Shown: piece by piece, positions 18,501 to 46,854 of the stretch
Layout: every line of letters starts with the position of its first letter
How positions within the stretch are numbered: the stretch's first letter is position 1
IMG/VR virus record: IMGVR_UViG_3300008448_000144
Location: 1 to 48,646 of that record
Reading direction: 5' to 3' (one strand)
Length of the DNA stretch: 48,646 bases
Source: a virus
Notes under the pieces: model-generated
What the model was told of the DNA's origin: nothing
The model's input: the letters and a program-made list of their open reading frames with translations, nothing else
Database searches by the model: none
Position numbers and translations under genes: made by a program

Positions 18501-21400
18501 GTAGACAAGTTAAACTCGTTAAGCCTGTTTGTTCCGGTATCTTCACGGAAAACTCCGCTGTATGTAAGACCATTTGTTACCTGCTCCTGCTCGTAGTTCT
18601 CGATAGTAGACAATACGCGAGGGCTGTACTTCATTAATGACCCATTGAAGTCATCTCTGATACGGTCGCTCTCTACACCATTTCTAAAGCAGAATGCGTT
18701 ATATACATTGTCCAAGCTAACTACCGCAGCTTTCTTTGATGTTCCTGCTGTTGCTCTTGTTTGGTTTGTTATGTTTCCAGAGTGTAGGCCATCAACAACA
18801 TCGAATGTCGCAGCCTCGTGGTAGATGTCCGCATCGCTTGATGTTGGTACAGTTTCTAAAATCGTTGGATTCTCTACTTGCGTCAGAGAGAAGTCTACAG
18901 TAAGTAGTGAGCGCTCGCAGTCTGTCAAGCTTCCAGGAGTGTTACCATATCCAAGGATGTACATCCTTACGGCTCCATAAAGAGACTGCCTTGTTTCGTT
19001 TATATTGTCCTTTATTCTAAAAACCACAGACCTTCTAAAGAAGATGCTCTTGTACCCCCTGTTTCCATCTGCCATCATGACAAATTTGGTATAAGCCCCA
19101 TCCTCAATAAACCACTCTTCTATGTTCGCGTAGTTTCTAGAAGAAACAAATGTTTGCACTGGCTGATCAGATCCACCCACAACTTTAGTCTCGTCTATCT
19201 TGATGGTAATTACAGCCCCAGCCTTTATCTCTAAGTCCTCTTCTGTTGCATTAATACCAGGGACGGCAGTAGTCTGAAGTGCTCCAGGAATAATAGCACA
19301 AGACCCAATGGGATCGTTTTTTCCGTTCCAAGCTGTGCGGTCACCAAAATAGTTCAGTCCATTGTCTGAGCGACAGTTTATTCTCCAGCTATCGCCAATT
19401 GTGTGGCCATTTACTGTAGCAAACTTAATATTAGCGATGTCTCTTCCGTCCTCATCTTTTAGTATTTGATTGGCCCCTGTAATTGCAATCTTAGAACCAA
19501 GTACTTGAGAGGACCCGAACATTGTGTACTTAAATGTATTTATACCATCGATAGTGACCGTATAACGAATATCCTTTGTAGTACCCATGGATATCCACTG
19601 AGGATCCACAGATAGGTTGTTCAATCCAACTCCGTAGAATATGGGGGGCTCAATCAACGCCTTCCTGCCCAAAAGCGGGTTTATTGTCTCCTTGCTACAC
19701 AACAATCGACCAACACCAGTGCGTCCTTTACCTACAGACTTGTATGTAAATAGACTGTCCTCGTTAAACGCGTTGTTGTTGTCTACTTTTATCTTCAAGT
19801 ATACGCCAGCCACATTGGGTCTTGCACTGTTGTTCAAGAAGTCCTTTGGCTTTACGTCTAGCTCTAGAACTTTATATTGCTGAGCACTGTATGTAATTCC
19901 AAGAGGATTTGCCTTGATGGTGATATAGTCGTTTGCTTTTACCTTATCTACGTCTGACTCGTTGATGAGCATGTATACGAATGGTCCGTCAACATAGAAC
20001 AGCGTAGGATAAATAGTATAGTAGGCGCCCTTGTTTTGCTTTATCATAATACGATACTTGGTAGCAAAAGCAGGTGCCTCGTTATTGATGTTCACCAACA
20101 ACTTGTTAGATGTGTCAGAGTTCTCTGGGCCAATATAGACAGAATTGTCTACAGAAGTAAGCACAGTGCTCATCCTTCCGTATGCGTCAACATAAGAAAT
20201 GCCGATCTCGTAGTCTCTGTCACTACGCATTGTTTTTACCGGGCTTCCAACGACATATACATTCGAAGGCTTACTCTCTGAAGAATAGTCTGCAGAATAA
20301 TCCATTGTGATACCCCTATTGGTAGTATCTACAATGTTGTAAAACTGGGTGTAGTTTCCATAAACCAGGCGACTCCCAATTAAGTCTTGCGCCTTAGCCT
20401 TTAACGGAACGTTGTCAAACAACCTTGTTAATTGGCTAGTTGGAAGTACACTGTATATTTTGTTGTTTGAAAAAGATCTAAATGTAGCTACGCCAGCAGA
20501 ATAGCTAACAGAGCTAACCTTTTTGTCCTCTATGTCTCTTTTATTAAAGCTATCAATTATATTTACATTCTGGCTTGAAGAGTCTTTGAATACAAGTTGA
20601 ATTTCTTTTACTAGGTCAGATCCTGTTTTAAAAGATATGTCAACATACTTGTACTTATTGACCATTGACTTATTTGATCCTGTACCATAATCATATTGAA
20701 AATCTTCAGGAAAGAATGCAACTTCTGAGAATGGAGCTAGAGGACTGTACTCGTTGTTCTGATACTTGTATCTATAAGAAAAGTATAAGAACTTTTCAGC
20801 CATGTTGTTAGTATCAATTAAATCATTTTGCGCATCGTTTGGTTTTATGATTACAGGAGCCTCTAGTGGTGGCTTTACAATAACATTGATGTCCTCTTCT
20901 GTAAATGCATTGTATGCGTAATTCTGTTTGGTATCAATTCTCCTTGGAGGATTAAGACCATCGGTCCAGAAAAGCAAGTCACTAATATAGTTCACTCCAG
21001 TAATTAAGTACTGAGTGTTGAAATTCAATATGTTTGCAGATCCAACTCTCGTGTCCATCACGTGCACAGTAGTTAATCCGGTAAGATCGTTGTATGATGC
21101 GATGATGTTTCCACCAACGGCCTTTACAAACCAGAAAATAAGAAACTCAGAAGGCACAGCAATTGAACCAATTGCCTTAGCTCCTGTCAGAGAAAATGCA
21201 GATCCAGAAAATGCAGTGGCCGCAGCAGCTAGTCCACTGACCTTGGTATTCCCTAATTCATTTGACAAAGCTCCAACGTCAGAACCCTCGGAGGTACCGA
21301 CGGTTACGTTCATTGCATCTCTGTATTGTCCATCCGGGATCAGGCGCTCGTCCAGATCCTTATTCATTATACCAGCTACTAGGGTTCTCTTTAATTCCAT
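15524..21400 (-). CDS. Muzzle / tail stabilisation protein with BACON and Ig-like domains (1958 aa)
   Basis: The N-terminus (NKDLDERLIPDGQYRDAMN, SEGSDVGALSNELGN) is the hallmark of the crAss-like stabilisation protein, seen as the muzzle at the tail tip in the crassvirus structure. Residues about 1-1090 form the conserved body. A BACON domain follows at about 1112-1200 (PSSITVDKTSQTKNIFDI, WMTVAPSSGTGN, TRTATLTITASCG, FTITQTA), then a long Thr/Ser/Gly-rich beta region with a He_PIG/Ig-type module near 1640-1710 (LPAGLNFDSTTGIISGTV). Several Cys- and Tyr-rich repeats end the protein. The start overlaps the upstream ring-protein stop (TAATG). BACON domains bind carbohydrate or mucin, so the distal half likely contacts the host surface or glycans. 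Confidence 0.85.
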   Translation of the reverse strand: MELKRTLVAGIMNKDLDERLIPDGQYRDAMNVTVGTSEGSDVGALSNELGNTKVSGLAAAATAFSGSAFSLTGAKAIGSIAVPSEFLIFWFVKAVGGNIIASYNDLTGLTTVHVMDTRVGSANILNFNTQYLITGVNYISDLLFWTDGLNPPRRIDTKQNYAYNAFTEEDINVIVKPPLEAPVIIKPNDAQNDLIDTNNMAEKFLYFSYRYKYQNNEYSPLAPFSEVAFFPEDFQYDYGTGSNKSMVNKYKYVDISFKTGSDLVKEIQLVFKDSSSQNVNIIDSFNKRDIEDKKVSSVSYSAGVATFRSFSNNKIYSVLPTSQLTRLFDNVPLKAKAQDLIGSRLVYGNYTQFYNIVDTTNRGITMDYSADYSSESKPSNVYVVGSPVKTMRSDRDYEIGISYVDAYGRMSTVLTSVDNSVYIGPENSDTSNKLLVNINNEAPAFATKYRIMIKQNKGAYYTIYPTLFYVDGPFVYMLINESDVDKVKANDYITIKANPLGITYSAQQYKVLELDVKPKDFLNNSARPNVAGVYLKIKVDNNNAFNEDSLFTYKSVGKGRTGVGRLLCSKETINPLLGRKALIEPPIFYGVGLNNLSVDPQWISMGTTKDIRYTVTIDGINTFKYTMFGSSQVLGSKIAITGANQILKDEDGRDIANIKFATVNGHTIGDSWRINCRSDNGLNYFGDRTAWNGKNDPIGSCAIIPGALQTTAVPGINATEEDLEIKAGAVITIKIDETKVVGGSDQPVQTFVSSRNYANIEEWFIEDGAYTKFVMMADGNRGYKSIFFRRSVVFRIKDNINETRQSLYGAVRMYILGYGNTPGSLTDCERSLLTVDFSLTQVENPTILETVPTSSDADIYHEAATFDVVDGLHSGNITNQTRATAGTSKKAAVVSLDNVYNAFCFRNGVESDRIRDDFNGSLMKYSPRVLSTIENYEQEQVTNGLTYSGVFREDTGTNRLNEFNLSTANFKYVDRFFGSIQKLYARDTDLVVFQENKVSVVLYGKNLISDSVGGGTISTVPEILGTQIAFPGEYGISLNPESFAVWGSDLFFTDARRGVALRVAGNSIQEISMQGMRDWFKDLFIAGINRQKIGTFDPYNQMYVLASNDDTASPCELVVTPSSITVDKTSQTKNIFDIQSNSGWVITNIPVWMTVAPSSGTGNQDVEADIAENTTGVTRTATLTITASCGVVRTFTITQTATVIKRRSTFVIGSPEESGKVGTQKYNYSSSTTAGYEFNDTIFKPVDVSLFDTASDVAGTNGIPAPGDTVTVYAYKDATSALDAELNPFIPTAGNKVYYLVSNTEYTQEDYATVLSLATPVTMSLVGTEYSGTFVYSAPSNEQYLYLVWDYRNTVACGSAVSYSGVAATIPTVVNMGANIGRVSFSYDAQSTPDRFVISVGGNVVADSGYVGLNSLANYNALIAAGVPEAEIALVEPYDGLVNNSTGTLGFVRTSTEETVLTVYSPLSSNSWTATTGCASLTSFTLDTTNGTIDNVCSQTPSTTKYHNADGGVVSIGCTIYNDSTGSSVYDGGNAYHKTGTNLMFVTSNGVVTEISSCLCSETAPPIVTVSNMEFVTGQSVNFKVPATNNPTSYTLVSACSNFSFFGGSEGAVFYGANCETGYYETIVVSGGQTSSRCFASGTVSQISGSADATLTVEGACSGFSLPAGLNFDSTTGIISGTVEGIGEYPASFTATNCFGTGPTTQVTVSSVLNDNPATQFEVFISGQGTSSAACALLVLGWDNLYHNGYYTYPIVGDTVFLQARGGNVFEGSNLWYKTNNNQSCQISDDGVVLAVFNCGSTPPTPPVPPAGGYYQATLCNSTYSAVLYDAVVRVIANGTIFKTSDGNCWTKTADVSAQAATFTVPTTLVTSASCAICTGEAPGLTEVFLTDAGTKSVVCADTNYYSYWTDGTIGVSGTLYLNSSGTTVAGAGYYKSSADLLNAHYWSGSAWTSTEAC

Positions 21401-24206: not shown

Positions 24207-25607
24207 TTATGCACTTTTGAACAAGAAGAAGTTATTAGCTCCCAAGGTGCACAATGCACGCTCAGACAAGAAGCTAACCTTCATCGCATCCAAATCGCTA
24301 GTAGCAGCACCACCGGCAGAACCAGTGATCCAAGTCTTGTAGCGACGGTTCTCAGTTTCGCTAGCGCGGTAACGAACGTGCAAGAAAGGACGCTTAGCGT
24401 TCTTACCCATCACCATGTCGTACACGTTAGTAGAACCAGCAGGAACCAACACGCCATTAACTTCACCACCAACGATACCACCACGCAAAGTTGCGTCGTT
24501 CAAGTATTTCCAGTCGGTCTTGTAGAAGTCATAGCCACGCTTGAAACCTTTGAAGCCCAAGTTCAAGGCCATAGTTTCATCGTTGTTAAACACACCGTAG
24601 CTAGTACCGTTAGCACCGTAGCTGTTTTGAGCAGCCAACATATCGTCGATATCGAAACCGAAGTTACGGTTAACGAACAACATGTTCTCTTGGATAGCAC
24701 CCTGCTTGTCCAAACGCTGGATGATCGCGTCGAAGTCAGCCAATGTGCTTGGGTTTCCACCACCCCATACGTTACCACGTTGTTCGATTGTGTAGAACAA
24801 ACCTTTGGTACCCTTGTTTCCAACGTCACCAGTTACAGCGATAGCACCAGAACCAGATTCAGCAGGAACACCTTCTACCATAGACATTTCCAAGTAGTCC
24901 TCGAAACGCAAACGAGTTTCGTGCTCAGACTTGATGTACCACAAGTAGCCAGTTGCACCATTCTCAGTAGTAACTTCTACCCATCCGATCTGAGCCATGT
25001 CAGAACCAGATACTTCGTAGTTGTCCTTGATGATGATAGGGCTGTTGTCGAAGATGTCATCTTGAGCCTCCAAAGAACCAGACATACCAGCAGCACCTTT
25101 TTTGAATTCAGAACCGTAAACAAATGCAGTAGATGCAGTTGATACAGGGATGTTCTGTCCAGGGCCGTTGTAGTAAGCAACGGTGAAAGTCAAACCAGAC
25201 ACGGCAGTGATGATAGCCTTGTCGCTTTGAGTACCACCAGAGTTGCGAGACAAGAACACAGTCTGACCTACGCGGAAGTTACAAGCAGTAATACCTGCGT
25301 CAGCAACAGTCCAAGTAGCGGTGTCAGAACCGGCAGCAGCAGCAGAAGTACAGCTTACATACTTGGTATGCAAACGACCTTGCTCTGCCCACTTGATCAA
25401 GTCAGAGTTAGAAGGCATCTCAGCACCAACCTGGCGCAAGAAAGATGCGATAGAGCGATTACCATAACGCTCGAATTCTTTCTCGTAGGTATCAGGAAGA
25501 TACTGATTCAAGAAATCGAAGTTGGTAATGTAGTTTGAAGGCAAAGTTGCCTTGACGGACGAGGGGGTTATAGCAAACCCTGGGCTCGTTTGAACTGATC
25601 CAGCCAT
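24207..25607 (-). CDS. Major capsid protein (crAss-like, HK97 fold expected)
   Basis: A 466-residue protein directly after the scaffold-like gene, in the normal place for the capsid subunit. The segments NFDFLNQYLPDTYEKEFERYGNRSI, MAQIGWVEVTTENGATGYLW and SEHETRLRFEDYLEMSMVEG match what I recall of crAss-like capsid proteins. Residues about 85-165 form a Val/Thr/Gly-rich beta insertion that may be an outward domain. The start ATG 25607 follows a 30-base leader of almost only A and C with no Shine-Dalgarno, the Bacteroidota pattern for strongly translated genes. It is transcribed from the 26785 promoter with the scaffold gene. A long antisense frame over this gene is a shadow. Confidence 0.9.
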   Translation of the reverse strand: MAGSVQTSPGFAITPSSVKATLPSNYITNFDFLNQYLPDTYEKEFERYGNRSIASFLRQVGAEMPSNSDLIKWAEQGRLHTKYVSCTSAAAAGSDTATWTVADAGITACNFRVGQTVFLSRNSGGTQSDKAIITAVSGLTFTVAYYNGPGQNIPVSTASTAFVYGSEFKKGAAGMSGSLEAQDDIFDNSPIIIKDNYEVSGSDMAQIGWVEVTTENGATGYLWYIKSEHETRLRFEDYLEMSMVEGVPAESGSGAIAVTGDVGNKGTKGLFYTIEQRGNVWGGGNPSTLADFDAIIQRLDKQGAIQENMLFVNRNFGFDIDDMLAAQNSYGANGTSYGVFNNDETMALNLGFKGFKRGYDFYKTDWKYLNDATLRGGIVGGEVNGVLVPAGSTNVYDMVMGKNAKRPFLHVRYRASETENRRYKTWITGSAGGAATSDLDAMKVSFLSERALCTLGANNFFLFKSA

Positions 25608-26795: not shown

Positions 26796-26818
26796 CAAAA
26801 TAGTGACACACTATTTTG
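26796..26818 (-). terminator. 10-3-10 hairpin overlapping the portal stop codon
   Basis: Perfect arms CAAAATAGTG and CACTATTTTG surround a 3-base centre; the portal TAG at 26811-26813 lies in one arm. On the - strand the arm ends in TTTTG and is followed by TGTAAATTTG, so it can terminate weakly and sits against the next promoter. Confidence 0.65.
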
Positions 26819-29243
26819 GCTCAAATCCAGCTAGGTCAAATCCATCAAGGGTGTCCTCATTTGACTCAAAGTCGACTGGTGGCAAATTGTTTTTTCTTTG
26901 CTCAATCAACTTAGACTGCTGAGTGTTTTGAAGAGAAACTCGCTTATCTTTAGCTTCTTCTTTCATCTTCTCTTTCTCAGTAACAACCTGTGACTCAAGA
27001 CCCTTCAACTGCATATTCATCTGGAACTCTTGCTGCATTAAGCTCAACTTAATACGTGCTTCTTGCTCCATTGTTTGAATTGCAAACATTGACTCGGCCT
27101 CTTTGATTTGAATCTTAGACTGGGTATCCGCCTGGATCTGTTGCATCTTAGCCTCGGCTGCTGCCTGTGTAGCTGCGATGTTAGAGTCAGACTGGAACTT
27201 AGACATCATCTGCTGCTTTTCTAGGTCTTTCTTCTCCTTGTCCTTACGCTTAACCTTCAACAACTGATTAGCAAGCTTCAAGTTCTTGATCTCGCGGATA
27301 TCGATTGCATCTTCCAATGCGATCTGGTCCCTACTCAATGCCATCTGAATATTAGCCTCAAGCTGTTGCTTTTCTTCTTCGTCTGGAGAAACCTCGATGA
27401 AGATACCAAAGTTGTGCAAGTAAAGCTCCTTGATGCTGTCAAGGATCTGGATGTTGTACTTACCGATCTGATTTGCAAACTCGTCTCTGAAGTCAGCGTA
27501 CTCCAAGATGTCAGAGATACGGCAAGACAAAGCCTCAGACAGTCTGCGTGTGATAAAGATACCACCGTCTAGAATGTGCCTTGTGGCAGTATTTGAGTTA
27601 GCTGCAGCGAGCTTCTGTACGCCAACCAAAGCGTCTGAGCTAGGCATAGACCCATCTCGTGCTTCGTTAAGCCCTGTAACGTCACGCAGCATGCTCATGT
27701 ATTGGTTGTATGCTGCGATCAGACTAGATATTTTTCCTTGTGCGGCGCTAGAGTTTAATTCTTGGATTGGAACGCGTGCATTGTTGAACTCGCCGTCCTG
27801 TGTGTAGCTTCTTCCGATTACACTACCAGTCTGGAAGTACATGCGAAGAGCGTCCTCTGGGTTGTATGCGGCACCATTGCCCAAGTCAACCTCGTTAAGT
27901 CCGTCTGCATCGATGAATACACCGTCTGGAACCATCTTAGACAACACCTGCTGTAACTTAAGGTGTGTCATCTGGATCAAGTCAGCGAACGCTGTCATGC
28001 GTCGGCCCAAAGACTCAATGGCTCCCTTGTACATACGAGGGGCAACCATCACGTAGTTTGAGTACGCATACTGTGACGCAGACTTTGGTCTGGCCATGTT
28101 CTTAGACATCTCCCACTTGATCAACTTGTTTGATCCGAGAACCATGATGCCCTCGTACCAAACATCGATACGCTTCTCTACCTTCTCAAATCTTTCTTCG
28201 GTTTGATCAGCTGGAGGATTAAATCCTTCGTCCTTACGGATTACACGCTCTCCACCATTTTCAAGAAACTTCTTCTTGTATACAAATGTCTTGTCAGTTT
28301 TATAATTAAAGTACAACAGGGTAACCACGTCCTTGTCGAACAGGTCATTTCTGTATGTACGCATAACGCCATAGTAGTCCCACCATGCAGTGCCCAACTG
28401 AGAAATCTCTTCAAGCTCTTCTTTGGTAATGTCCGGCTTGATCTTAATCAGCTCGGTGATCGGAACCTGCTTTACCTCTCCCCAGTAGAATACGTCGTCA
28501 AAATAGGGTGACTCGGTGTAGCTGTATACCACGTTGGCGGGATCGACATACTCAACCTTAACTCCAGATCCTGGATAGAATGAATGTTTGACACCACCGA
28601 TACCCAATGTGGTAAGGTCGTAATCGACACGCTTTTTAGTGTCTGCATAGTTATTTTGTTCAAGTAGGGTGTTAATTGCTTCTTCCTCGGCAATCTCAAT
28701 GCTTGGCTTATACTTCAGCTGCATGTAGAGCTGCAACTCCTCGTCGTTTGACGGAAGATCTTCTACATTTGTATTGAAAGCGTCAACGCCAAACTGCTCC
28801 TTTGTCTGCAACAAAAAGTCCTTAGCGACCATGTCGCCCTCAATCATGTCTTGGAACTGATTGCGCTTCTCAGCGGCCATCGCATCTTGAGCGACTGCCT
28901 TTACAGAGAAATTACGGTCTGCCATACCATTAACAACGATGTCAATGAACTTGGGCATGATTGGAACTGGCGTCCAAGAGAGGTTAAGGTACGACAAGTC
29001 GCCATCGAATGACATCTCCTTCTTGTACTTCTCAACAGACTGTTCACCACGTGCGTACAATCGCAGACGATGGAACTCAATCCACTGGTTGTAGAACCTG
29101 CACGAGCCAGCGTCCTTACGGAACCACTCTGACTGGACAGCAAGTCCAACCTGTAGGCCAAACTCTTTAGATGCCTTTTGTGCATCTGTGGCCAACTGAC
29201 TTGGGAACGTCGTTGGATTGATTACTATTTTCGGATCTGTCAT
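26811..29243 (-). CDS. Portal protein (810 aa)
   Basis: The portal forms the dodecameric DNA gateway at one capsid vertex. The N-terminal block (SEWFRKDAGSCRFYNQWIEFHRLRLYARGEQS, then LSWTPVPIMPKFIDIVVNGMADR) matches recalled crAss-like portals. The middle is the usual wing/stem/crown mix, with the stem likely around NSSAAQGKISSLIAAYNQYMSML and the helices after it. The last 130 residues are a Gln/Ala/Lys-rich coiled coil (MMSKFQSDSNIAATQAAAEA). It starts one base over the terminase stop (TAATG) and ends in a terminator hairpin. Size, order and motifs agree; confidence is high. Confidence 0.9.
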   Translation of the reverse strand: MTDPKIVINPTTFPSQLATDAQKASKEFGLQVGLAVQSEWFRKDAGSCRFYNQWIEFHRLRLYARGEQSVEKYKKEMSFDGDLSYLNLSWTPVPIMPKFIDIVVNGMADRNFSVKAVAQDAMAAEKRNQFQDMIEGDMVAKDFLLQTKEQFGVDAFNTNVEDLPSNDEELQLYMQLKYKPSIEIAEEEAINTLLEQNNYADTKKRVDYDLTTLGIGGVKHSFYPGSGVKVEYVDPANVVYSYTESPYFDDVFYWGEVKQVPITELIKIKPDITKEELEEISQLGTAWWDYYGVMRTYRNDLFDKDVVTLLYFNYKTDKTFVYKKKFLENGGERVIRKDEGFNPPADQTEERFEKVEKRIDVWYEGIMVLGSNKLIKWEMSKNMARPKSASQYAYSNYVMVAPRMYKGAIESLGRRMTAFADLIQMTHLKLQQVLSKMVPDGVFIDADGLNEVDLGNGAAYNPEDALRMYFQTGSVIGRSYTQDGEFNNARVPIQELNSSAAQGKISSLIAAYNQYMSMLRDVTGLNEARDGSMPSSDALVGVQKLAAANSNTATRHILDGGIFITRRLSEALSCRISDILEYADFRDEFANQIGKYNIQILDSIKELYLHNFGIFIEVSPDEEEKQQLEANIQMALSRDQIALEDAIDIREIKNLKLANQLLKVKRKDKEKKDLEKQQMMSKFQSDSNIAATQAAAEAKMQQIQADTQSKIQIKEAESMFAIQTMEQEARIKLSLMQQEFQMNMQLKGLESQVVTEKEKMKEEAKDKRVSLQNTQQSKLIEQRKNNLPPVDFESNEDTLDGFDLAGFEPK

Positions 29244-31453
29244 TATCTTATGAGCTCACTCTGCGAGCCTTTATTGTCGTATTGTGCAAATTTAAGGCTT
29301 ATTTTTGACTTCTTTACCTCTGGAACATATAAATGTCTTTGAGTTGCCATGATGGCAAGACCGGAGCTAATAGATGCGTCATGCTTTGTACGATTGTTTA
29401 TGTCAAAGCGTGCCCAGTCCTCAAGAGTTCTAATGAATGGCATGATCCCCATCTCGTCTGACGGACGGTATGTTCCCTCAAAATCAATGCCCACATACTT
29501 CTCGATGTAGCTCTCGATAGCAGCAGCGTGTGCCTGCTTTACGTCCTCAGACGTGTTCGGTATTCCGCCTATCTCTATCTCGGTCTTAGACAACTTAGAT
29601 ATGTGCTTGTCTGGCCGGTTCATCGCAAATGCACGATAACCTCTATTCTTGAAGTGGTACAAAAGTCTTGGCTTGTTGTTCTCGACCAAGATTGGCATAC
29701 CATAAAACACACACGCCATCAGTACGTCCTCGAAGAATATCTCTGCCGTCTGTGGTCTTGCGATGTACTCCAAGAAGAACTCATTGGTTGGCCCTTCGTC
29801 CATGTGATACTTCGTCAATCCGTGTAGCGATCCGTTAGAACCACCACCACCTACGGCACCAGAGATGTCATACGGGTCACACCCAAAGCATCCCATGTGT
29901 TCATTTCCTGGCTTGAATTTCCCATTTACACGCAGCACCTTGTTTCTTTTATTGGCATCCGGTATCCATGACACCAAGAAACGCCCGGTTCTATCCGGTG
30001 TCCAAACCACCTCAGAGTCCTTGATACCATCTTTCCAGTGGAACGACCCACGAGTGATGGACTGGATACCCACCATAGAGTCGTTGTAGTCTATCTGCTG
30101 GTAGATCTTGGTAAGGTTGAACAATGAAGACTTAGACTCGTCCCTAAATGCGTGCGACTCTGTGCGTGGAAACTGACGATAGAATTCGTTCAACGCATCT
30201 GCATCGCCCTTTAAAGCTGCAACTTCGTTGTCCCAGTAGTCAATAACACTCTGGTATATGTATCCACCGTCAATCCCTTTTACTGGAGTCTCTGGCTTCT
30301 CAAGCACTGGCCATCCATGCTCATCGATAAATCCTTCAAAGTTCCACTCCATTGGAATAAACAAAGAGTAAAGACCGCTCTTGGTCTGTCCATTATTACT
30401 TCTCTTCTTTGGGTCCGAGTCGTAGTACAAGTCCTTGAATCCAGAACCACCTTTGTCAAGTGCGTTAGACGTAGAGCCCATCATACACTTTCCGATAATC
30501 CTAGAACCAAGACGAAGACATGTCTTTGTTACGCGCCAGTTGTTCTCAATATTATTTGGTGGCAACCACTTACCACTTTCGTCATGGATAAGCAATTTCA
30601 ACTTTTCACCGTCATAGCTGTTGTCAGCCGTATTCTTCCAGTCGATAGACGTGTCAAGACCCTCGATGTCCTCATCGTTCTTGTCCATGTTCTTCCGCGT
30701 GATCTTCGACGCAGGAACACGGTATCCAAGCTCTGTCTTTGGCTTGTCCATACCATCTTGAACCGGCTTGAAGAAGAACGGGTAGTTGCTAGATATTGGC
30801 ACTACCTTGTCAGTGAACATGATCTTGGCATCGTTACCGGTCTTTGATAGAATACCAAGTCTTGCGTTCTTTGATATCGTTGCCGTATTTACCAATTCTG
30901 CCGAACTCATAAACGAGAATCCAGAACGACGGTTCTTCAAGTAGCACATCCCAAAGCAGCGAGTGTCAGCCTTACAAGCCTCCCAGAAGATAAAGAAGAT
31001 CCTGTTAGACTCACGAAACTCTGGAAGACCGATATCAATCTTGGTCCACTGCAAGTACATGTAGTGGGTTCCGGTAATGTACGTCTTCTGCTTTTTATTC
31101 ATGAACCAGAATCCATTCTCACGCCTGTCAAACTCAGTCTCGATGTAGTCAATCCACTTTGTCTTAAACTGGTTGTCATACTTGTTCCAGTCGAACATGC
31201 TCTTAATCTTTGCAAGCTCTTTTGGGTACTCCTGTGGCTGCCACTTGGCACCCCTGTCTTCTATGTTTGACGGCTTTGGAAGAGCTATCCTTAGACCATT
31301 CACCTCGTAGATCGGACCAATAGTTCCGTCCTTAGATATGACAACAAAGTCGTATTGCGGATCGTATCCGTATTTCCACGACTTCTCTGCGTTCTTCTTG
31401 CTGAGAACGTCCGGCTTTACTACCTCCTTGAGGACTTGATACAGTTTTGTCAT
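29243..31453 (-). CDS. terL: Terminase large subunit
   Basis: The packaging motor ATPase-nuclease. Motifs in order: a deviant Walker A KNRRSGFS at 173-180, Walker B LLIHDE with D291/E292, a coupling motif GSTSN at 326-330, then the RNase H-like nuclease with D526 (GCDPYD), E591 (LVENN) and D692 (KHDAS). The N-terminus SWKYGYDPQYDFVVISKDGTIG and the 736-residue length are as in the crAss-like and related marine terminases I recall. It overlaps the small upstream gene by ATGA and the portal by TAATG, so all three are coupled. A headful mechanism cannot be decided from this sequence. Confidence 0.93.
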   Translation of the reverse strand: MTKLYQVLKEVVKPDVLSKKNAEKSWKYGYDPQYDFVVISKDGTIGPIYEVNGLRIALPKPSNIEDRGAKWQPQEYPKELAKIKSMFDWNKYDNQFKTKWIDYIETEFDRRENGFWFMNKKQKTYITGTHYMYLQWTKIDIGLPEFRESNRIFFIFWEACKADTRCFGMCYLKNRRSGFSFMSSAELVNTATISKNARLGILSKTGNDAKIMFTDKVVPISSNYPFFFKPVQDGMDKPKTELGYRVPASKITRKNMDKNDEDIEGLDTSIDWKNTADNSYDGEKLKLLIHDESGKWLPPNNIENNWRVTKTCLRLGSRIIGKCMMGSTSNALDKGGSGFKDLYYDSDPKKRSNNGQTKSGLYSLFIPMEWNFEGFIDEHGWPVLEKPETPVKGIDGGYIYQSVIDYWDNEVAALKGDADALNEFYRQFPRTESHAFRDESKSSLFNLTKIYQQIDYNDSMVGIQSITRGSFHWKDGIKDSEVVWTPDRTGRFLVSWIPDANKRNKVLRVNGKFKPGNEHMGCFGCDPYDISGAVGGGGSNGSLHGLTKYHMDEGPTNEFFLEYIARPQTAEIFFEDVLMACVFYGMPILVENNKPRLLYHFKNRGYRAFAMNRPDKHISKLSKTEIEIGGIPNTSEDVKQAHAAAIESYIEKYVGIDFEGTYRPSDEMGIMPFIRTLEDWARFDINNRTKHDASISSGLAIMATQRHLYVPEVKKSKISLKFAQYDNKGSQSELIR

Positions 31454-31737
31454 TTAGAGAACCTTTCAGCAAACCCCTTTTTAGTCTCTACAGATGCAGG
31501 TGTGGCCTTCTCCTCTGGAGCTTCTAGCATATTCTTCTCCTCTTGGATCCTCTTTAAGATGTCAAATGCGTCCATAATGGCCAGCTTTTTAGTAGCCGCT
31601 GCGTTCTTCAGCTTGTCCGCAGACAGGTCCGTTTCGGAGTTGTTGTTTAGAATAGGTTCCTTGGCCACAGAGATAAGCTCATGAATAGCCTTCTCTGCCG
31701 CCTCGATGATCTTTTCTTTGAATTCTTTCTCCGTCAT
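31450..31737 (-). CDS. Packaging-associated small protein, possible small terminase (95 aa)
   Basis: The ATG at 31737 is chosen because it overlaps the preceding stop as ATGA. The product is helical, with the conserved-looking block DLSADKLKNAAATKKLAIMDAFDILKRIQEEKN at about residues 37-69 and a Lys-containing disordered C-terminus. A protein with this block precedes the large terminase in related phages. The place suggests a small terminase or a motor accessory protein, but no helix-turn-helix is evident, so that remains inference. It overlaps terL by four bases. Confidence 0.65.
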   Translation of the reverse strand: MTEKEFKEKIIEAAEKAIHELISVAKEPILNNNSETDLSADKLKNAAATKKLAIMDAFDILKRIQEEKNMLEAPEEKATPASVETKKGFAERFSK

Positions 31738-32291
31738 AACGCTACGCATATGTTTTTGCTAAACATTCTGTACAGCTTCTCTCCGTCAACAATGAACGCG
31801 TACTCGCTCTCTGGCTGGAAGCTAACCATGTCTCCATCCTTTAGGCCCTTTGAGTACAAGTACTCGTTTCCGTACTTTAGAACTCCTATCAGTGGCTGCT
31901 CTCTATCTGGATCCACAAGAACGCTCTCCTGCAAGTTGTCAATTGGCTTTACCATGCAGTAAGGATGTGGAGCTTTCCACTGCCCGTCGTGCTTGTACAG
32001 AAAGTACTGGTCATCGTCAATCAAGAATGTTTTGTCTCTAAAGTGTGATGGCCCGTATACCTCTTTGCCACGCATGTCGAAGTACTTACGAAATACGTTG
32101 TGGTGAACCATCAGTGTGTCACCAGGAACAATCTCCCCAGTGTATCCAATCGGAGTGGCGATGACCGTGGCAAACCTATTGGTTACCGTGTGGTCCTCCT
32201 TTGAGGCGCTCAGTACGAGGCCGTAATCCGTTGTGTTGTCGTAAAGCTTGTCGCCAACAGGCTCTACAACAAAGTAGAGCGGTGATTTCAT
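31734..32291 (-). CDS. Tandem GroES-like barrel protein (185 aa)
   Basis: Two GroES-like halves appear in one chain. Residues about 4-95 (YFVVEPVGDKLYDN, ATVIATPIGYTGEIVPGDTLMVHHN) and about 108-185 (YCMVKPIDN, IGVLKYGN, GLKDGDMVSFQPESEYAFIVDGEKLYRMFSKNI) each show the order of GroES: opening V-x-P strand, G-x-V turn, then V-x-x-GD-x-V and a closing strand pair. Double barrels are known in plastid Cpn20. Neither half has an obvious glycine-rich mobile loop ending in a hydrophobic triad, so chaperonin capping is uncertain. It precedes the terminase genes with an ATGA overlap, while the phage also encodes GroEL and GroES elsewhere. It could also be a structural barrel. Confidence 0.6.
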   Translation of the reverse strand: MKSPLYFVVEPVGDKLYDNTTDYGLVLSASKEDHTVTNRFATVIATPIGYTGEIVPGDTLMVHHNVFRKYFDMRGKEVYGPSHFRDKTFLIDDDQYFLYKHDGQWKAPHPYCMVKPIDNLQESVLVDPDREQPLIGVLKYGNEYLYSKGLKDGDMVSFQPESEYAFIVDGEKLYRMFSKNICVAL

Positions 32292-40903: not shown

Positions 40904-41220
40904 GGTAGTGGTGTATTTTGCGGTGTTACTGGAGGATTGATCTGCTGATCGATCTGCCCTTGAATGCTCTGCTCGTAGTTGGCTACGGTGTCAGGACCAA
41001 GCACAGACTGTACCCATCCGATCACGATATCGTTTGTCAAGTCCTCGTAAGGAATGAAACTATCTACGTTAGCGGTAGAAAATCTAGCGCTATCTTGAAT
41101 TGATGAGGAGTACTCCCCGTCAACGCCCACTACCTCGTAGTTGGCGATGACTACATAGTTCTGCTCTCCTTCAATCGTTTCGGTGTAGAGAGACGTTACT
41201 GTCCAAGTATATGTTGTCAT
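40894..41220 (-). CDS. Conserved small phage protein, TWTVTSLY type (108 aa)
   Basis: The pattern TYTWTVTSLYTETIEGEQNYVVIANYEVVGVDGEYSSSIQ, then VDSFIPYEDLTNDIVIGWVQSVLG, matches a small acidic phage protein that I recall next to fibre genes in several podoviruses and myoviruses. It begins with a beta sandwich-like half and ends with a helix and a Gln/Pro-rich tail. It overlaps the beta-roll fibre stop by one base. Function is unknown; a fibre chaperone or small tail protein is plausible from context. Confidence 0.68.
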   Translation of the reverse strand: MTTYTWTVTSLYTETIEGEQNYVVIANYEVVGVDGEYSSSIQDSARFSTANVDSFIPYEDLTNDIVIGWVQSVLGPDTVANYEQSIQGQIDQQINPPVTPQNTPLPWN

Positions 41221-42785
41221 TATGCTAATAAGATTTTTTGTGCTACTCCGTTAATAATCACGTCCCAAGTTTTTGTTTGTGGAGCTACAACAGTAGTTAC
41301 TGCACCTGCATTATATGCAGCAGAACCTACTACAAATTGGTTTGGGGCAGTTGCTGTTGCTTGACGACCTATAACTACACAAGAGGATTGACTATTTGAT
41401 GTTGCTTGACGACCTAAAACTACGCTGCTACCATTTGCTAAAGAACCACCTCCTACAGCAACCGAATCTACAGATGCTGTTGATTGAGAACCTATCGCTA
41501 TACAATTAGAAAGAGTTGATCCTGCAGATTGTGCTAAGTATCCTATAAAAACGTTATCAATTCCACTCGTTGTGGCACTACCCGCCTGAAACCCTAACGC
41601 AGTATTCTGACTACCCGTACTCGCAGTCAATGCTTGATATCCGATTGCGGTTATACCTGTGCCGGAGGTGTTGGCAAAAGCGGCACTATGACCTAAAGCG
41701 GTATTATTAGAAGCGGTGTTGTTCCTTAGTGCTTCCAATCCTATAGCGGTGTTATTACTACCTGTTGTATTTGAAAATAAAGCAGAATATCCGTGAGAAG
41801 TATTGCTATTTCCACTCGTTGTAGAATAAGCGGAAAATACACCCACCGAAGTATTTGTGCCTCCTGTGGTATTAGCAAACGAAGATTGAAAACCTACAAC
41901 GGTATTGTTACTACCCGTACTAACTCGTAACGCTTGATGACCTATGGCAGTGATACCTGTTCCACTTGTGTTGGTTAAAGCGGCTTCAAAACCTACGGCA
42001 ACGTTGTTGGCGGCGGTATTATTTTGTAATGATGCCCTACCTACTGCTACGTTGCTATCTCCAAGAAGATTAGAAAGTAGTGAGTTTGTACCAATAGCAA
42101 CATTACCTGATCCTATTGTATTTGCTGCTAAAGCATTTACTCCCATGCCAACGTTATTAACACCTGTAGTATTTGCTGCTAAAGCAGAACTACCTACAGC
42201 AGTATTATTATTACCCGTACTAACCCTCAACGCCTGATAACCGATAGCAGTTATTCCCGTTCCGCTTGTGTTGGTATTTGCTGCTTCAAAACCTACGGCG
42301 GTATTGTTAGAGGCAGTATTGTTAGTCAATGTGTTTCTACCAACAGCAACGTTATTAGAACCAGTTGTGTTCAACTGCAAAGAAAAAGAACCTATCGCTG
42401 TATTTGTGTTTCCTGTTCCATTTGTTGCCAATGCAGAGTTTCCTACTGCAACGTTACCAGTCCCAGAGGTATTAACAGTCAAAGCAACGCTTCCTAATGC
42501 AGTATTGTTGTTGCCTGTACTTAACCTTAACGCTTGATACCCAATTGCGGTAGCGTTTGTTCCACTGACGTTGCTTAACAAAGCTTCGCCACCAAAAGCA
42601 GTGTTTGTTAAAACTGATCCGCCACCACGGTTATTGATTGAGTTTGTTGACACCAACAACGGCAGGTCGTTCCCGTTGCCGTCGCTCAACGCTCTCATCG
42701 TGCCAGACAATGGTAAATTATCTCCAAGCTTGATCAGCGATGGGTATGTGTTTTGGGGTGTTGTATTTAATAAGGAAGTTCCCAT
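41220..42785 (-). CDS. Beta-roll fibre with trimeric-adhesin head repeats (521 aa)
   Basis: Residues about 55-480 are built of short units of the YadA-head/Hep_Hag type, centred on NTAIG/NVAVG followed by three residues and Ala-Leu, spaced 16-17 residues apart, which stack as a left-handed parallel beta-roll and form trimers. Units are organised in a longer repeat of exactly 100 residues: TAIGY/HQALR(V/L)ST and its TAIGYQALTAST variant begin at about 79, 179, 279 and 379. The first 55 residues (LNTTPQNTYPSLIKLGDNLPLSG) look like a virion anchor, and the last 20 (TKTWDVIINGVAQKILLA) a trimer cap. A -7 element ends three bases before its ATG. Confidence 0.85.
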   Translation of the reverse strand: MGTSLLNTTPQNTYPSLIKLGDNLPLSGTMRALSDGNGNDLPLLVSTNSINNRGGGSVLTNTAFGGEALLSNVSGTNATAIGYQALRLSTGNNNTALGSVALTVNTSGTGNVAVGNSALATNGTGNTNTAIGSFSLQLNTTGSNNVAVGRNTLTNNTASNNTAVGFEAANTNTSGTGITAIGYQALRVSTGNNNTAVGSSALAANTTGVNNVGMGVNALAANTIGSGNVAIGTNSLLSNLLGDSNVAVGRASLQNNTAANNVAVGFEAALTNTSGTGITAIGHQALRVSTGSNNTVVGFQSSFANTTGGTNTSVGVFSAYSTTSGNSNTSHGYSALFSNTTGSNNTAIGLEALRNNTASNNTALGHSAAFANTSGTGITAIGYQALTASTGSQNTALGFQAGSATTSGIDNVFIGYLAQSAGSTLSNCIAIGSQSTASVDSVAVGGGSLANGSSVVLGRQATSNSQSSCVVIGRQATATAPNQFVVGSAAYNAGAVTTVVAPQTKTWDVIINGVAQKILLA

Positions 42786-43475: not shown

Positions 43476-43943
43476 ATGGACTACAAAGAACTGGCCGATT
43501 GCTTGAGATATCTCACGCCGGCCAAAAAAATGATGTGCGAGCGGTATAATTTCACCCGGTCACACATGGAACTGCTGATTTTTATCTACTCTAGGCGTGA
43601 GTTCCAGCTGAAACGCTTGTACGAGTACGCTGCACTTACCCACTGGGAGTCAAAACTCTTCTCGGACCTCAAGGCCCAGAAGTTTATCAAGATCGTGAGG
43701 CCACACAAGACGTCGCTGGGAACTGTTTATGGATGTACCAAGAAGACAGATAAGGTCGTTGAGGAACTTTTTGCCATTATTACTGGGCAGGCCCCCTTCT
43801 CAGACGATCCGAAAGTGAATCCGATGTTTAAGAAGGAGACCTACACGCAGCGTTACCACTCTAAGTACATGCTTAGAGCGAATCAAGAACGAGAACAACG
43901 TCCCGCTCCTGGATTATATGATACGGAAGACGATGAATTCTAA
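43476..43943 (+). CDS. Winged-helix-like putative regulator (155 aa)
   Basis: This is the only + strand gene in the virion region. Residues about 5-105 have a MarR/winged-helix feel: RYLTPAKKMMCERYNFTRSHMELLIFIYSRREFQL, RLYEYAALTHWESKLFSDLKAQKFIKIV, then a wing-like RPHKTSLGTVYGCTKKTDKVVEEL, then a disordered acidic end. The gene has its own -7 element, an inverted repeat in its leader, and its 3' end overlaps groES by 71 bases in antisense. It may control late genes or groES/groEL. The winged-helix reading is by pattern only; a virion protein is also possible. Confidence 0.6.
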   Translation: MDYKELADCLRYLTPAKKMMCERYNFTRSHMELLIFIYSRREFQLKRLYEYAALTHWESKLFSDLKAQKFIKIVRPHKTSLGTVYGCTKKTDKVVEELFAIITGQAPFSDDPKVNPMFKKETYTQRYHSKYMLRANQEREQRPAPGLYDTEDDEF

Positions 43944-44142
43944 CGCCGTGGCCGGCTCTTCTGTCATAATAAATGACAGAAGACTCTGCTATGTCAGCTA
44001 TTACATCACCCCCAACATAAACGACACGAGCCTTGCCGTAGCGTAGCTCGTTCTCGTCCGTGTTTGTCATGATCAGCCCAGAGGCGGCAGTCGTCTCCTC
44101 CTTAATGGGCTCTACTACAATGTATTTACCGATTGCTCTCAT
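43873..44142 (-). CDS. groS: GroES-like co-chaperonin (89 aa)
   Basis: MRAIGKYIVVEPIKEETTAASGLIMTN is the normal GroES opening with a mobile loop at about 14-28; the usual GGIVL triad reads SGLIM. The barrel strands (KARVVYVGGDVI, SSVIYYDRRAGHGV) and closing strands (DVVLVLDSL) follow. At 89 residues it is slightly shorter than bacterial GroES (about 97). It would cap the phage GroEL. Unlike bacterial groESL, it is encoded after groEL and overlaps its stop (ATGA). Its 3' end overlaps the + strand winged-helix-like gene by 71 bases. Confidence 0.85.
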   Translation of the reverse strand: MRAIGKYIVVEPIKEETTAASGLIMTNTDENELRYGKARVVYVGGDVIADIAESSVIYYDRRAGHGVRIHRLPYHIIQERDVVLVLDSL

Positions 44143-45707
44143 GCCCTTACGTTTGTGATGATACAGTTAGTGCTCAAGATGGTCGTAGCAACGCTCACAG
44201 CGTTCTCTAACGCACTTTTTGTGACTTTCAGCGGGTCGATGATGCCCATCTCGATCATGTTGCCGATCTTCCCGTCCTTCACGTCGTAGCCGTAGCCGAA
44301 CTTGCCCTGGTACGCCAAAGCGATCTCTCCCTTGATCTCGTTCACGTCGTAGCCTCCGTTCTCCAAGATCGTATTAAATGGCTGCTGCAACGCGTGCTTT
44401 AAGATGCTCTTTGCTGTAGAACAGCCGCAGGTCTCGCCGGCGATGTTCAACAACGCAATACCACCACCCGGCAGAATGCCTCCCTCCATCGCGGCCTTGG
44501 TCGCGTATACCGCGTCCTCCACCCGGTCCTTCTTTTCTTTCAGCTCTACGTCGCTCTGTGCTCCAACGTAGATAACGCCAACACCTCCTGCGAGGTTCGC
44601 TAAGCGCTCTTCGAGGTGCTTTTTGACATACTCGTTAGTCTCGTCGGAGATCTTCGCTCTAATGCCATCTACGCGGCTCTCAACGCGTTGTGACACCTCG
44701 TCATCGGTCATTATAACGGTGCTTGTAGCACTAACCACCACTTTTTGTGCGTGGCCAAGGTCAGCGAACGCGATCGTGTACAAATTATCGCCCGTCCCGT
44801 CAGAGATGAACTTAGCACCGGTCGCAGCTGCGATGTCCTCCATAATGTCTGTCCTGTTGGCTCCAAAACTAGGAGGTACAATGGCACAGACCTTGATCAC
44901 ACCCTTCAGTCTGTTCAAGTTCAAGCTGTTCAAAGCGTTCTCAGAGAGCTCAGCAATGATCAATATGCTCTTTCCGCTCTGCACTACCGGCGCCAGTAGG
45001 TGCTCGATAGAGTTCAGGCTCTGGATTTCTTGGTCAGAGACCAACACGTAGCAGTCTTCCAAGATCGCCTCGTTCTTTTTCTGGTCTGTAACGAAGTACT
45101 TGCTGGTCCAGCCCCTGTCCAACTTCATGCCGGCAACCACCTCAGAGTAAGTTGTTGCATTGTTTGAGTTCTCGACGGTCACAACGCCGTCTTTTCCGAC
45201 CATTGAGTAGGCGTCGGAGATGATCTGACCCAGCTCTGGGTCATTATTGGCCGAAATGGTGGCCACAGACGCAAGCGACTCGTCGGTAACCGGGATAGAC
45301 ATCGCGTCTAAGGCCTTTGCAACAGCACCCGCTAGCTCTTTTACCTCTCTCAGCACCTTTGTCTTGTTGTCCTCTGGCTTCATGAACTGCTGAGCGCCAT
45401 GGATCAAGCCCTGTGTCAGCACAATTGAGGTTGTAGTCCCGTCTCCAGCCGCTGTTGCGGTCCTCTCAGAGGCCTCACGCATCATCTGCACCGCCAAGTT
45501 CTCGGTCGGATCGCTCAAAATGATGGATCTAGCCACACTTACTCCGTCTTTTGTGATGTGCAAACCATGGGTAAACTGGTCCGACTCAATTAAAACTGTC
45601 TGTCCTCGTGCTCCGAGGGTACTTTTTACTGCATTTGCGATGGTGTCGATACCAGACACCAGCTTTGCACGGGCGTCAGCCCCAAATTCAACTTGCTTTA
45701 CGATCAT
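44139..45707 (-). CDS. groL: GroEL-like chaperonin (522 aa)
   Basis: A full-length group I chaperonin: LGARGQT at 31-37, KDG with D54, AGDGTTT at 87-93, VEDA with D398, and GIIDPLKVT with D491, corresponding to E. coli D52, D87, D398 and D495. The apical domain is diverged and the C-terminus lacks the GGM tail that lines the cage. It folds proteins in an ATP-driven barrel with GroES. It has its own promoter with a 17-base A-rich leader. GC content is higher than in nearby fibre genes (33 of 60 in row 44221). Phage-encoded GroEL is known but uncommon. Confidence 0.93.
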   Translation of the reverse strand: MIVKQVEFGADARAKLVSGIDTIANAVKSTLGARGQTVLIESDQFTHGLHITKDGVSVARSIILSDPTENLAVQMMREASERTATAAGDGTTTSIVLTQGLIHGAQQFMKPEDNKTKVLREVKELAGAVAKALDAMSIPVTDESLASVATISANNDPELGQIISDAYSMVGKDGVVTVENSNNATTYSEVVAGMKLDRGWTSKYFVTDQKKNEAILEDCYVLVSDQEIQSLNSIEHLLAPVVQSGKSILIIAELSENALNSLNLNRLKGVIKVCAIVPPSFGANRTDIMEDIAAATGAKFISDGTGDNLYTIAFADLGHAQKVVVSATSTVIMTDDEVSQRVESRVDGIRAKISDETNEYVKKHLEERLANLAGGVGVIYVGAQSDVELKEKKDRVEDAVYATKAAMEGGILPGGGIALLNIAGETCGCSTAKSILKHALQQPFNTILENGGYDVNEIKGEIALAYQGKFGYGYDVKDGKIGNMIEMGIIDPLKVTKSALENAVSVATTILSTNCIITNVRA

Positions 45708-45779: not shown

Positions 45780-46424
45780 TTATTTTTTGGTAGACTTCAT
45801 CATCGGCTTCTTTGTCACAGCACCCTTTGATGATGGGGCAGATCCTTTAGAAGCTCTTGGCTTGCAGGTGCCCTTGTTGCCACCGTTCATGGCAGTTACT
45901 GGGCATACGTTCTGCATTGCAGCTGCTGACACGCCCTTACCGGTGCCTGCACCTGGACCAGATGGGCCCATTACCGCGTTCTGCTGCAACTTTGAGTTGC
46001 GTTTACGCATCTGCGCATCGCTCAATGGACGAGAGGCGATATCTCTGCGGTGCCTGTCGATGGTAGCGTTGATCTCACGCTTGGTTTTGTTCTTGAACGT
46101 ATTTGGAGACAATGTCTCACGGATCTGCTCACGAGCAACGCGTTTGCGTCTGTCGAGCATCTCTCCTGTCTCGTTGATCACACGCCCAGTGCTATTTCGG
46201 TCAGCAATACGCTTTGTACGCTCTGCACGTCGTGCACTGATGCGTGCCTGACGGTTCTCTGCGTTACTAGCGTTTACATTTCTGTCCTCGTAGCGAGTTG
46301 TAAAGTCACGGGTGATAACATTGGCCTCCTGCTTGGCAAGAGTCCCTGCCTTTTTCAGCTTGGCGCCACCAACGGCTTTCACCCTGGTCTTGATCGCTCT
46401 TGCTTTCTCTTTAATGTTTGGCAT
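45780..46424 (-). CDS. Arg/Lys-rich protein, possible DNA-condensing virion protein (214 aa)
   Basis: The product is very basic through residues 1-150 (IKEKARAIKTRVKAVGGAKLKKAG, RQARISARRAERTKRIADRN, RRKRVAREQIRE), then has a Gly/Pro/Ala segment with two cysteines (NVCPVTAMNGGNKGTCKPR) and a Lys-rich end. No enzymatic motif is seen. Such composition fits a nucleoid-like packaged protein or DNA-binding factor. It is preceded within two bases by another basic protein gene and followed by the groEL terminator. Function inferred from charge alone. Confidence 0.6.
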   Translation of the reverse strand: MPNIKEKARAIKTRVKAVGGAKLKKAGTLAKQEANVITRDFTTRYEDRNVNASNAENRQARISARRAERTKRIADRNSTGRVINETGEMLDRRKRVAREQIRETLSPNTFKNKTKREINATIDRHRRDIASRPLSDAQMRKRNSKLQQNAVMGPSGPGAGTGKGVSAAAMQNVCPVTAMNGGNKGTCKPRASKGSAPSSKGAVTKKPMMKSTKK

Positions 46425-46426
46425 CG

Positions 46427-46660
46427 TTATGGTTTTTTCTTGGTTGGGATGTAAGACTTACCGGTCAAACGACGCTTGGTGTTGACCATGTCTGCAACAG
46501 CACCCATCGCAACGGCTCCCATGCCGGCAACTTTACCCATTGTAGACTTACGCTTCTGCTTTTTGGCGGCCTCGGTACCAGACGCTGTCATCGGAACCTT
46601 TGGCGCAGACTTCATGGCCTCTTTCTTTGTAGCCGCTCCCGGCTTCTTTGGCTTCATCAT
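46427..46660 (-). CDS. Basic small protein with short hydrophobic patch (77 aa)
   Basis: The protein is Lys-rich at both ends (MMKPKKPGAATKKEAMK, KKQKRKSTMGK) with an Ala/Gly/Met/Val stretch at about 43-58 (GKVAGMGAVAMGAVAD) and ends KSYIPTKKKP. The hydrophobic stretch is too short and small for a firm membrane span. It overlaps the upstream gene by ATGA; an alternative start at the second Met is equally possible. It may bind nucleic acid in the virion. No family is recognised. Confidence 0.55.
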   Translation of the reverse strand: MMKPKKPGAATKKEAMKSAPKVPMTASGTEAAKKQKRKSTMGKVAGMGAVAMGAVADMVNTKRRLTGKSYIPTKKKP

Positions 46661-46854
46661 TTCTTTTTTACTTTAATGCTGCTGGTTGGTACTGCCTTCA
46701 CAAAGGTTTTGTTCTTGCCCTTTGGCTTTAAGTTAGGGTCGCGTGTGATGTTGTAAGCCGCAACGCTGTCTTGGTACGAACGTGATGGAGCGGTAGCTCT
46801 GTATGTGTTCGTCATCGGAACGTTCTTAGCTGGTGTAGTTTTTTTAACTGCCAT
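46657..46854 (-). CDS. Basic small protein (65 aa)
   Basis: Product MAVKKTTPAKNVPMTNTYRATAPSRSYQDSVAAYNITRDPNLKPKGKNKTFVKAV has no hydrophobic segment; basic residues are spread evenly and it ends SIKVKKK. Its ATG is six bases after a -7 element that directly follows the stop of the 47040 gene, so it starts a new transcript of basic proteins. I recognise no family. It is likely a virion-internal or DNA-binding peptide. Confidence 0.58.
   Translation of the reverse strand: MAVKKTTPAKNVPMTNTYRATAPSRSYQDSVAAYNITRDPNLKPKGKNKTFVKAVPTSSIKVKKK

Follow-up and report, generated by a model that had tools for sequence, protein, structure and literature searches.

Phage-encoded chaperonins have so far mostly been found as a lone GroEL or a lone GroES. 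In phage T4, the capsid protein gp23 (56 kDa) is folded by the host GroEL with the help of the GroES analogue gp31 (PMC6318259). Some phages carry both groEL and groES (PMC7185714, citing a virioplankton study from 2017), and for Maribacter phage Panino the presence of GroEL and GroES is in print (PMC11590407). In Chlamydomonas, lids with a total of seven GroES-like domains are assembled from Cpn10 together with the tandem proteins Cpn20 and Cpn23 (PMC5780408). Here, we describe the linear IMG/VR virus record IMGVR_UViG_3300008448_000144, which spans 48,646 bases and is referred to as the window. It encodes a GroEL, a short GroES, and a second GroES-like protein that appears to comprise two GroES-type domains in tandem. 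We favor the view that these proteins make up a Group I chaperonin kit owned by the phage and tied to its head genes. New here are the two-domain make-up of the tandem protein and its link to groEL; its kinship to GroES is not new, because PHROG and several records already carry the label 'co-chaperonin GroES'.

The groEL gene (44139..45707, minus strand) encodes 522 amino acids (Pfam PF00118, 2.5e-57; phrog_5725, 2e-140) and is followed by groES (43873..44142, minus strand), which encodes 89 amino acids (PF00166, 9.1e-9; phrog_3188, 2.2e-9). An earlier reading of the sequence, which we call the original prediction, held that groEL precedes groES with an ATGA overlap (44139..44142, minus strand). 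The coordinates of the open reading frames (ORFs) confirm this, as the groES ATG (44142-44140) overlaps the groEL TGA (44141-44139). The -4 overlap recurs in eight of the nine nearest loci, and also in the ninth (L004) if the ATG at 3455 is the start. Both genes evolve under purifying selection, with ratios of nonsynonymous to synonymous substitution (dN/dS) of 0.05-0.09 for groEL and 0.07-0.17 for groES (four relatives each).

The gene order, which the original prediction had singled out as striking for being opposite to that of bacterial groESL, is the usual state of this phage clade. We collected nine near viral loci by scanning with the window protein (83-98% identity) and 80 distant ones by scanning with an alignment (42-56%); the 80-locus lists of distant viral, bacterial, and tandem-gene loci each represent the best 80 of about 600 stretches and are not a census. 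Downstream of groEL, groES was found in 86 of the 89 viral loci (9/9 near, 77/80 distant), while the other three had no groES nearby and none had it upstream. The 80 bacterial loci comprised 78 with groES before groEL (ES-EL), two without groES nearby, and none with the order of the window (EL-ES). Among 18 deposited phage records, three are EL-ES (Caudoviricetes sp. MW202828, the Elemovirus phages of Flavobacterium, and Panino), six are ES-EL, and nine have GroEL alone in the flank examined, which spanned 3-5 kb for phage records, so that groES may lie elsewhere. Two records filed as phage and bacterial by neighbours or shape (L014, L028) are counted both within the bacterial loci and among the six ES-EL records. 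Since the Elemovirus records name both genes, the pair in EL-ES order was already annotated; together with the 86 of 89 viral loci, these deposited phages rule out that the order is unique to the phage described here.

Phylogenetic analysis supports the proposal that this chaperonin is phage-encoded and dedicated. A careful tree built from 59 rows contains a branch, supported at 100/99 and recovered in 100% of 200 bootstrap trees, that groups all 31 EL-ES phage GroELs. These figures hold for the 59 rows used out of 188 available, from which the long rows L017, L018, L021, L023, L024, and L079 as well as L053 had been dropped. In a first, quick tree, two long branches (L013, L021) were drawn together and the EL-ES group showed two changes, because L053, a contig of 4.1 kb, shows no groES. 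Other phage GroELs are placed elsewhere: four Vibrio phage rows stand beside a gammaproteobacterium (99/94), L015 nests in Bacteroidales, and L093 and L095 nest in Bacteroidota. Phages have therefore acquired groEL on several occasions, and it is to a single old lineage of phages that the window belongs.

These scattered placements also bear on a different origin of the genes, namely recent acquisition from a host or host DNA contaminating the contig. Recent acquisitions do exist, as L015, L093, L095, and the Vibrio phages illustrate, and some records filed as phage look bacterial, such as L014 (CAKLQH020000021.1), filed as Acinetobacter phage MD-2021a, in which the ordinary chromosomal genes pckG, dgkA, and glpQ surround groES-groEL. 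The GroEL of the window, by contrast, sits in a phage-only branch with phage homologues rather than inside one recent host clade, the outcome that the original prediction had named as fatal to it. Peptide patterns of the window protein, scanned across the genomes of 84,980 bacterial and archaeal species, revealed no close relative; nine viral contigs hold GroEL at 83-98% identity amid phage genes, and structural genes occupy the same contig. Both trees and the genome scan thus rule against a host origin, which we regard as very improbable indeed. The host itself likely belongs to the Bacteroidota, because cultured members with named hosts infect Flavobacterium and Maribacter.

The GroEL protein matches PF00118 (Cpn60_TCP1) across residues 23-519 with 195.1 bits (cut-off 34.3), as expected of a Group I chaperonin, and exceeds the cut-off of the NCBIfam subfamily PRK00013 (502.4 versus 397). 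It stays below that of the NCBI equivalog 'chaperonin GroEL' (TIGR02348; 490.5 versus 582.1 bits), and by these scores is related to GroEL while falling outside the equivalog curated for bacteria. The four aspartates expected for ATPase function (D54, D89, D398, D491) are retained, being invariant in an alignment of 12 rows and matching E. coli D52, D87, D398, and D495, and the nucleotide-binding glycines and threonines are kept as well (GDGTT and the equivalents of G414/G415). The lack of a GGM tail was likewise borne out: after the last strand the protein ends in ITNVRA, and GGM tails occur in none of 90 EL-ES viral rows versus 75 of 80 bacterial rows.

Further differences concern positions that we take, from the GroEL literature, to be ring-ring contacts (R452, E461, S463, V464, A109, K105). 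R452 is kept in 80/80 bacterial rows and 9/90 EL-ES viral rows and is N in the window, where E461 is replaced by D, S463 by N, V464 by E, A109 by P, and K105 by Q. L234, which we take to be a contact to GroES and substrate, is L in 76/80 bacterial rows, E or Q in 86/90 viral rows, and E in the window, where the D83 position is T. Taken together, these positions would cover ring-contact, GroES-contact, and intersubunit roles. The altered interface (R452N, S463N, V464E, and A109P among the changes) suggests that the GroEL of the window probably forms weak ring pairs or none, and its contact to the lid may be adapted to the GroES of the phage.

The short GroES carries a Cpn10 domain (PF00166, 35.7 bits, cut-off 21.1), and its AlphaFold2 (AF2) model (predicted local distance difference test, pLDDT, 87.4) matches solved Cpn10 structures (Foldseek, 9.3e-7). 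All eight listed NCBIfam GroES cut-offs are missed (best 32.9 versus 120). The original prediction described the mobile loop, SGLIM, as altered. This overstates the case because the canonical glycine and hydrophobic triplet are present: the glycine is conserved in 68/68 sequences and the following leucine in 62/68, which rules out a telling change in the loop. Its three residues after the glycine are mostly hydrophobic, and the loop is modelled with low confidence. A clearer difference is the missing roof hairpin, equivalent to 8-9 alignment columns of bacterial-type GroES; family members measure 85-92 amino acids and all are roofless.

The second GroES-like protein is encoded at 31734..32291 (minus strand) by a gene that is, like groEL and groES, under purifying selection. 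Its 185 amino acids match phrog_13932 'co-chaperonin GroES' in a PHROG scan (E 1.3e-20, residues 1-181 of 185). An AF2 model built from a 65-row alignment (pLDDT 85.8; predicted template modelling score 0.79) is of low confidence at residues 23-29 and ~120-130, the two expected loops. In this model the same strand order occurs twice, and each half (about 1-104 and 105-185) ends in strand, short helix, and strand, as does the GroES model. In a Foldseek search of the PDB, chain R of 7ekq ranks first (1.1e-5) and alone reaches E<=0.001, with chain Q next; the file names these chains 'Cpn20 co-chaperonin subunit' and 'Chaperonin 23'. VIA aligned 158 residues across 1-185 with Chlamydomonas Cpn20 (7ekq_R) at Z 10.1 and a root-mean-square deviation of 4.5, and it fits single GroES chains to residues 104-185 at Z 8-10. 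The predicted fold thus places two GroES-type domains head to tail over the full length of the protein, as in the Cpn20 type.

For the C half, sequence comparison agrees: it matches the bacterial GroES profile (P 3.3e-7), and a Callevirus member, as the only one of ten relatives, passes the Pfam Cpn10 cut-off in this half (28.2 versus 21.1 bits). The N half, compared through query columns only, aligns in register with phage GroES (20-60 on 18-57) and with bacterial GroES (40-62 on 37-67), each above 60/60 column shuffles, and the N half of the Elemovirus protein matches phrog_3188 (E 3e-4, 14-64 on 14-69). Its loop also resembles that of GroES, with G in 52/65 rows, L or F in 64/65, and I, V, L, or F in 65/65. 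We regard the GroES-type domain of the C half as secure and that of the N half as likely; for the latter, the evidence comes mainly from the model, supplemented by the weak profile alignment in register.

The location of the tandem gene links it to the packaging and head genes. Only an ORF of 99 amino acids (31450..31749, minus strand), which overlaps both neighbours and weakly matches phrog_20415 of unknown function, separates it from the gene for the terminase large subunit (29243..31453, minus strand; phrog_6681, 1.6e-173), followed by that of the portal protein (26811..29243, minus strand; phrog_6547, 2e-139). Further along lies the gene of a 466 amino acid virion structural protein (24207..25607, minus strand; phrog_13704, 4e-109), a candidate client and, by position only, a candidate for the major capsid protein. 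The family is common, with at least 590 confirmed stretches in one scan. Across 145 copies in the loci that we fetched, a terminase gene follows on the same strand in 97, at a median gap of 281 bases; another 23 loci leave no room for it, and 24 of the last 25 end in <2.8 kb, a stretch that could not accommodate most complete terminases.

The tandem gene also travels with groEL. It was present in 22 of 27 long records fetched via GroEL, chosen by eye for length from the 89 loci (L041 and L073, both >40 kb, lie outside this sample), and specifically in 22/25 EL-ES and 0/2 EL-only records. Conversely, 12 of 20 records fetched via the tandem gene and chosen for length hold GroEL, including 7/8 of those >50 kb. 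By tblastn, the gene occurs in 77 phage records (68 Flavobacterium, 7 Cellulophaga, MW202828, and Panino), and the record examined from each of these four groups also has groEL and groES. The head genes are syntenic in the four annotated phage groups. For a candidate from the crAss-like cr111_1, a 136 amino acid '10 kDa chaperonin' encoded two genes upstream of terminase (L027 5816-6226), comparison established no link with the tandem family (E 0.17); its match to single-domain GroES is weak (P 0.0008; E 1.8e-4).

Several results weigh against a tandem co-chaperonin within such a kit. A default hhalign run of the N half against GroES returned probabilities of 0.0-0.4, and the VIA matches of the N half by itself are limited to the GroES-like domains found in dehydrogenases (Z 3-4). 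The score of the N against the C half lies within the shuffled range (3/60 at or above), and the attempt to prove from sequence that the halves are duplicates of each other thus failed. Run against the PDB, the family profile reaches GroES at no better than E about 1 and retrieves neither a Cpn20 nor a Cpn23 chain at E<=10, phmmer with the tandem protein of the window retrieved nothing relevant, and Pfam detects no Cpn10 domain in it. One record >50 kb (G014) has the tandem gene without GroEL, and three EL-ES records are without the tandem gene; all four may be fragments.

Some of these points would fit a GroES fold put to another use, as a component of the virion or of the packaging machinery, leaving the 89 amino acid GroES alone to cap GroEL. 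In many phages, the gene for the small terminase subunit sits directly before the position of the large-terminase gene, and this is the place that the tandem gene takes in the 97 loci. The N half resembles GroES only weakly in sequence, and this, the poorly conserved hydrophobic triplet in the loop of the C half, and G014 point in the same direction. On the other hand, the scans of PHROG and Pfam gave no helix-turn-helix and no terminase family match, the glycine and hydrophobic triplet kept in the N-half loop are not needed for a purely structural role, the tandem gene accompanies GroEL in 22/25 long EL-ES records and is absent from both EL-only ones, and all 77 phage records that match it fall into four groups whose examined records contain groEL and groES. 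On balance we consider such reuse unlikely, and return to the tandem protein as a co-chaperonin.

How might the kit work? Belonging to the chaperonin family and retaining the ATPase residues, GroEL would form an ATP-driven ring. Its cognate lid would be the short GroES, whose gene follows groEL and overlaps it; we infer this role because the genes are adjacent and share ancestry and the GroES-binding face of GroEL is changed. The tandem protein would most likely be a second lid or a lid component, used late while virion proteins are made; fold, co-occurrence, and position are the reasons for assigning it there. By analogy with chloroplasts and T4, proteins of the head module may be enclosed under the short GroES as one lid, and under a second or mixed lid to which the tandem protein contributes, and likely clients would be head or tail proteins from the neighbouring genes. 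A bolder version, which we put forward as speculation and deem quite unlikely, is that three tandem proteins and one single GroES mix into an asymmetric seven-domain lid, made late, and generate a cage of other size or surface for head proteins; the solution of chloroplasts would then have been reinvented. The working lid and the virion client are both inferred. With respect to the original prediction of a virion substrate that the host machine cannot fold, the part that stands is linkage to virion genes: the tandem gene lies upstream of terminase and travels with groEL, and the head genes are syntenic across four groups.

The kit could instead serve general folding, or replication and metabolic enzymes during infection. 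The chaperonin genes of Callevirus lie among DNA polymerase and nuclease genes, GroEL and GroES have been noted near DNA polymerases in other phages (PMC11348598), and the groEL of the window is 12 kb from terminase. Against this, groEL and groES share the minus strand with the terminase, portal, and virion structural genes, that is, the strand of late structural genes, and the second lid-like gene sits in the head module itself. Non-virion clients therefore strike us as somewhat unlikely, and we retain virion proteins as the favored candidates.

Several neighbouring genes deserve mention. A convergent ORF of 155 amino acids (43476..43943, plus strand; phrog_17028, unknown function) overlaps groES by 71 bases at its 3' end. 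In 69/90 EL-ES loci, the strand opposite groES carries a homologue close to the 3' end of groES, and in 61/90 the two genes overlap, so that the antisense overlap is conserved; the gene at the same position in MW202828 is annotated 'repressor protein'. Directly upstream of groEL, three small Lys/Arg-rich ORFs of 214, 77, and 65 amino acids (45780-46854, minus strand) vary in length among relatives, and the first has no match in Pfam or PHROG. In two relatives, ORFs that by eye resemble GIY-YIG nucleases are inserted near groEL (L010 3503-4246; L009 7965-8627), the former directly before groEL with an overlap of 4 bases. Elsewhere, the window encodes a 3190 amino acid protein with a DUF3293 domain (2620-12192, minus strand; phrog_30118), possibly a large, chaperonin-independent virion protein; a 1958 amino acid virion structural protein that contains BACON as well as Ig-like domains (15524-21400, minus strand); a 521 amino acid protein of repeated NTAIG-type motifs, adhesin-head-like by eye and without Pfam match (41220-42785, minus strand); and, at the contig start on the opposite strand, a partial ribonucleotide reductase large subunit (2-1084, plus strand; PF02867). 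No tRNAs were found in the window.

A lineage that combines GroEL with a stripped-down GroES and a two-domain GroES-like protein tied to packaging and head genes constitutes a natural test system. It allows one to ask which proteins of the virion depend on a cage, how a lid of even domain number sits on a seven-membered ring, and how cage size is determined by lid design. Because the tandem gene family is common, cultured examples such as Flavobacterium and Cellulophaga phages can be used for this purpose.

The closest described relatives are Elemovirus (MT497098/NC_055853), MW202828, and Panino, in which groEL precedes groES and a GroES-like gene of 180-187 amino acids adjoins terminase, as in the window. 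Their GroELs are 37-47% identical to that of the window, and groEL and groES of Elemovirus overlap by 1 base. The records annotate these genes and not the two-domain make-up; the second gene of MW202828 is called 'hypothetical protein'. Callevirus (Cellulophaga phage phi38:1) has the same components, GroEL, Cpn10, and a 194 amino acid 'co-chaperonin GroES' before terminase, and differs in that Cpn10 precedes groEL with one gene in between. The groESL operons of E. coli and Bacteroidota likewise encode a Group I chaperonin with the same ATPase residues, whereas the pair of the window shows reversed order, lacks the GGM tail and the GroES roof hairpin, and is changed at ring-interface and D83/L234 positions. 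While T4 gp31 uses the host GroEL, the phage of the window has its own GroEL and a tandem lid-like protein, and the structural similarity to gp31 is weaker than that to Cpn10 and Cpn20. More distant are the chaperonins of the giant phages phi-EL, OBP, and AR9, which act without a known GroES, in contrast to the kit of the window. Single rings have been reported for the phage Cpn60s of phi-EL and OBP (PMC5934643) and for the phage-encoded Cpn60 of AR9, and the phi-EL chaperonin is 22% identical to GroEL (PMC7185714).

In the open-licence literature, we found no report of tandem or Cpn20-type co-chaperonins in phages, and the Cpn20 type is called chloroplast-specific in a review (PMC5780408). 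Chloroplast Cpn20 and Cpn23 resemble the arrangement of the window in that tandem proteins of two GroES-like domains occur alongside a Cpn10 of one domain, and one Arabidopsis Cpn10 functions only together with Cpn20 (PMC4242682). The tandem protein of the window differs from Cpn20 in having no detectable sequence kinship, in belonging to a phage rather than a plastid, and in the weak loop triplet of its second domain. As the family profile matches no Cpn20 or Cpn23 chain, we describe the protein as Cpn20-like in build and do not file it as a Cpn20. If it does serve as a lid, the arrangement of Cpn10 and Cpn20 known from chloroplasts would have arisen at least twice.

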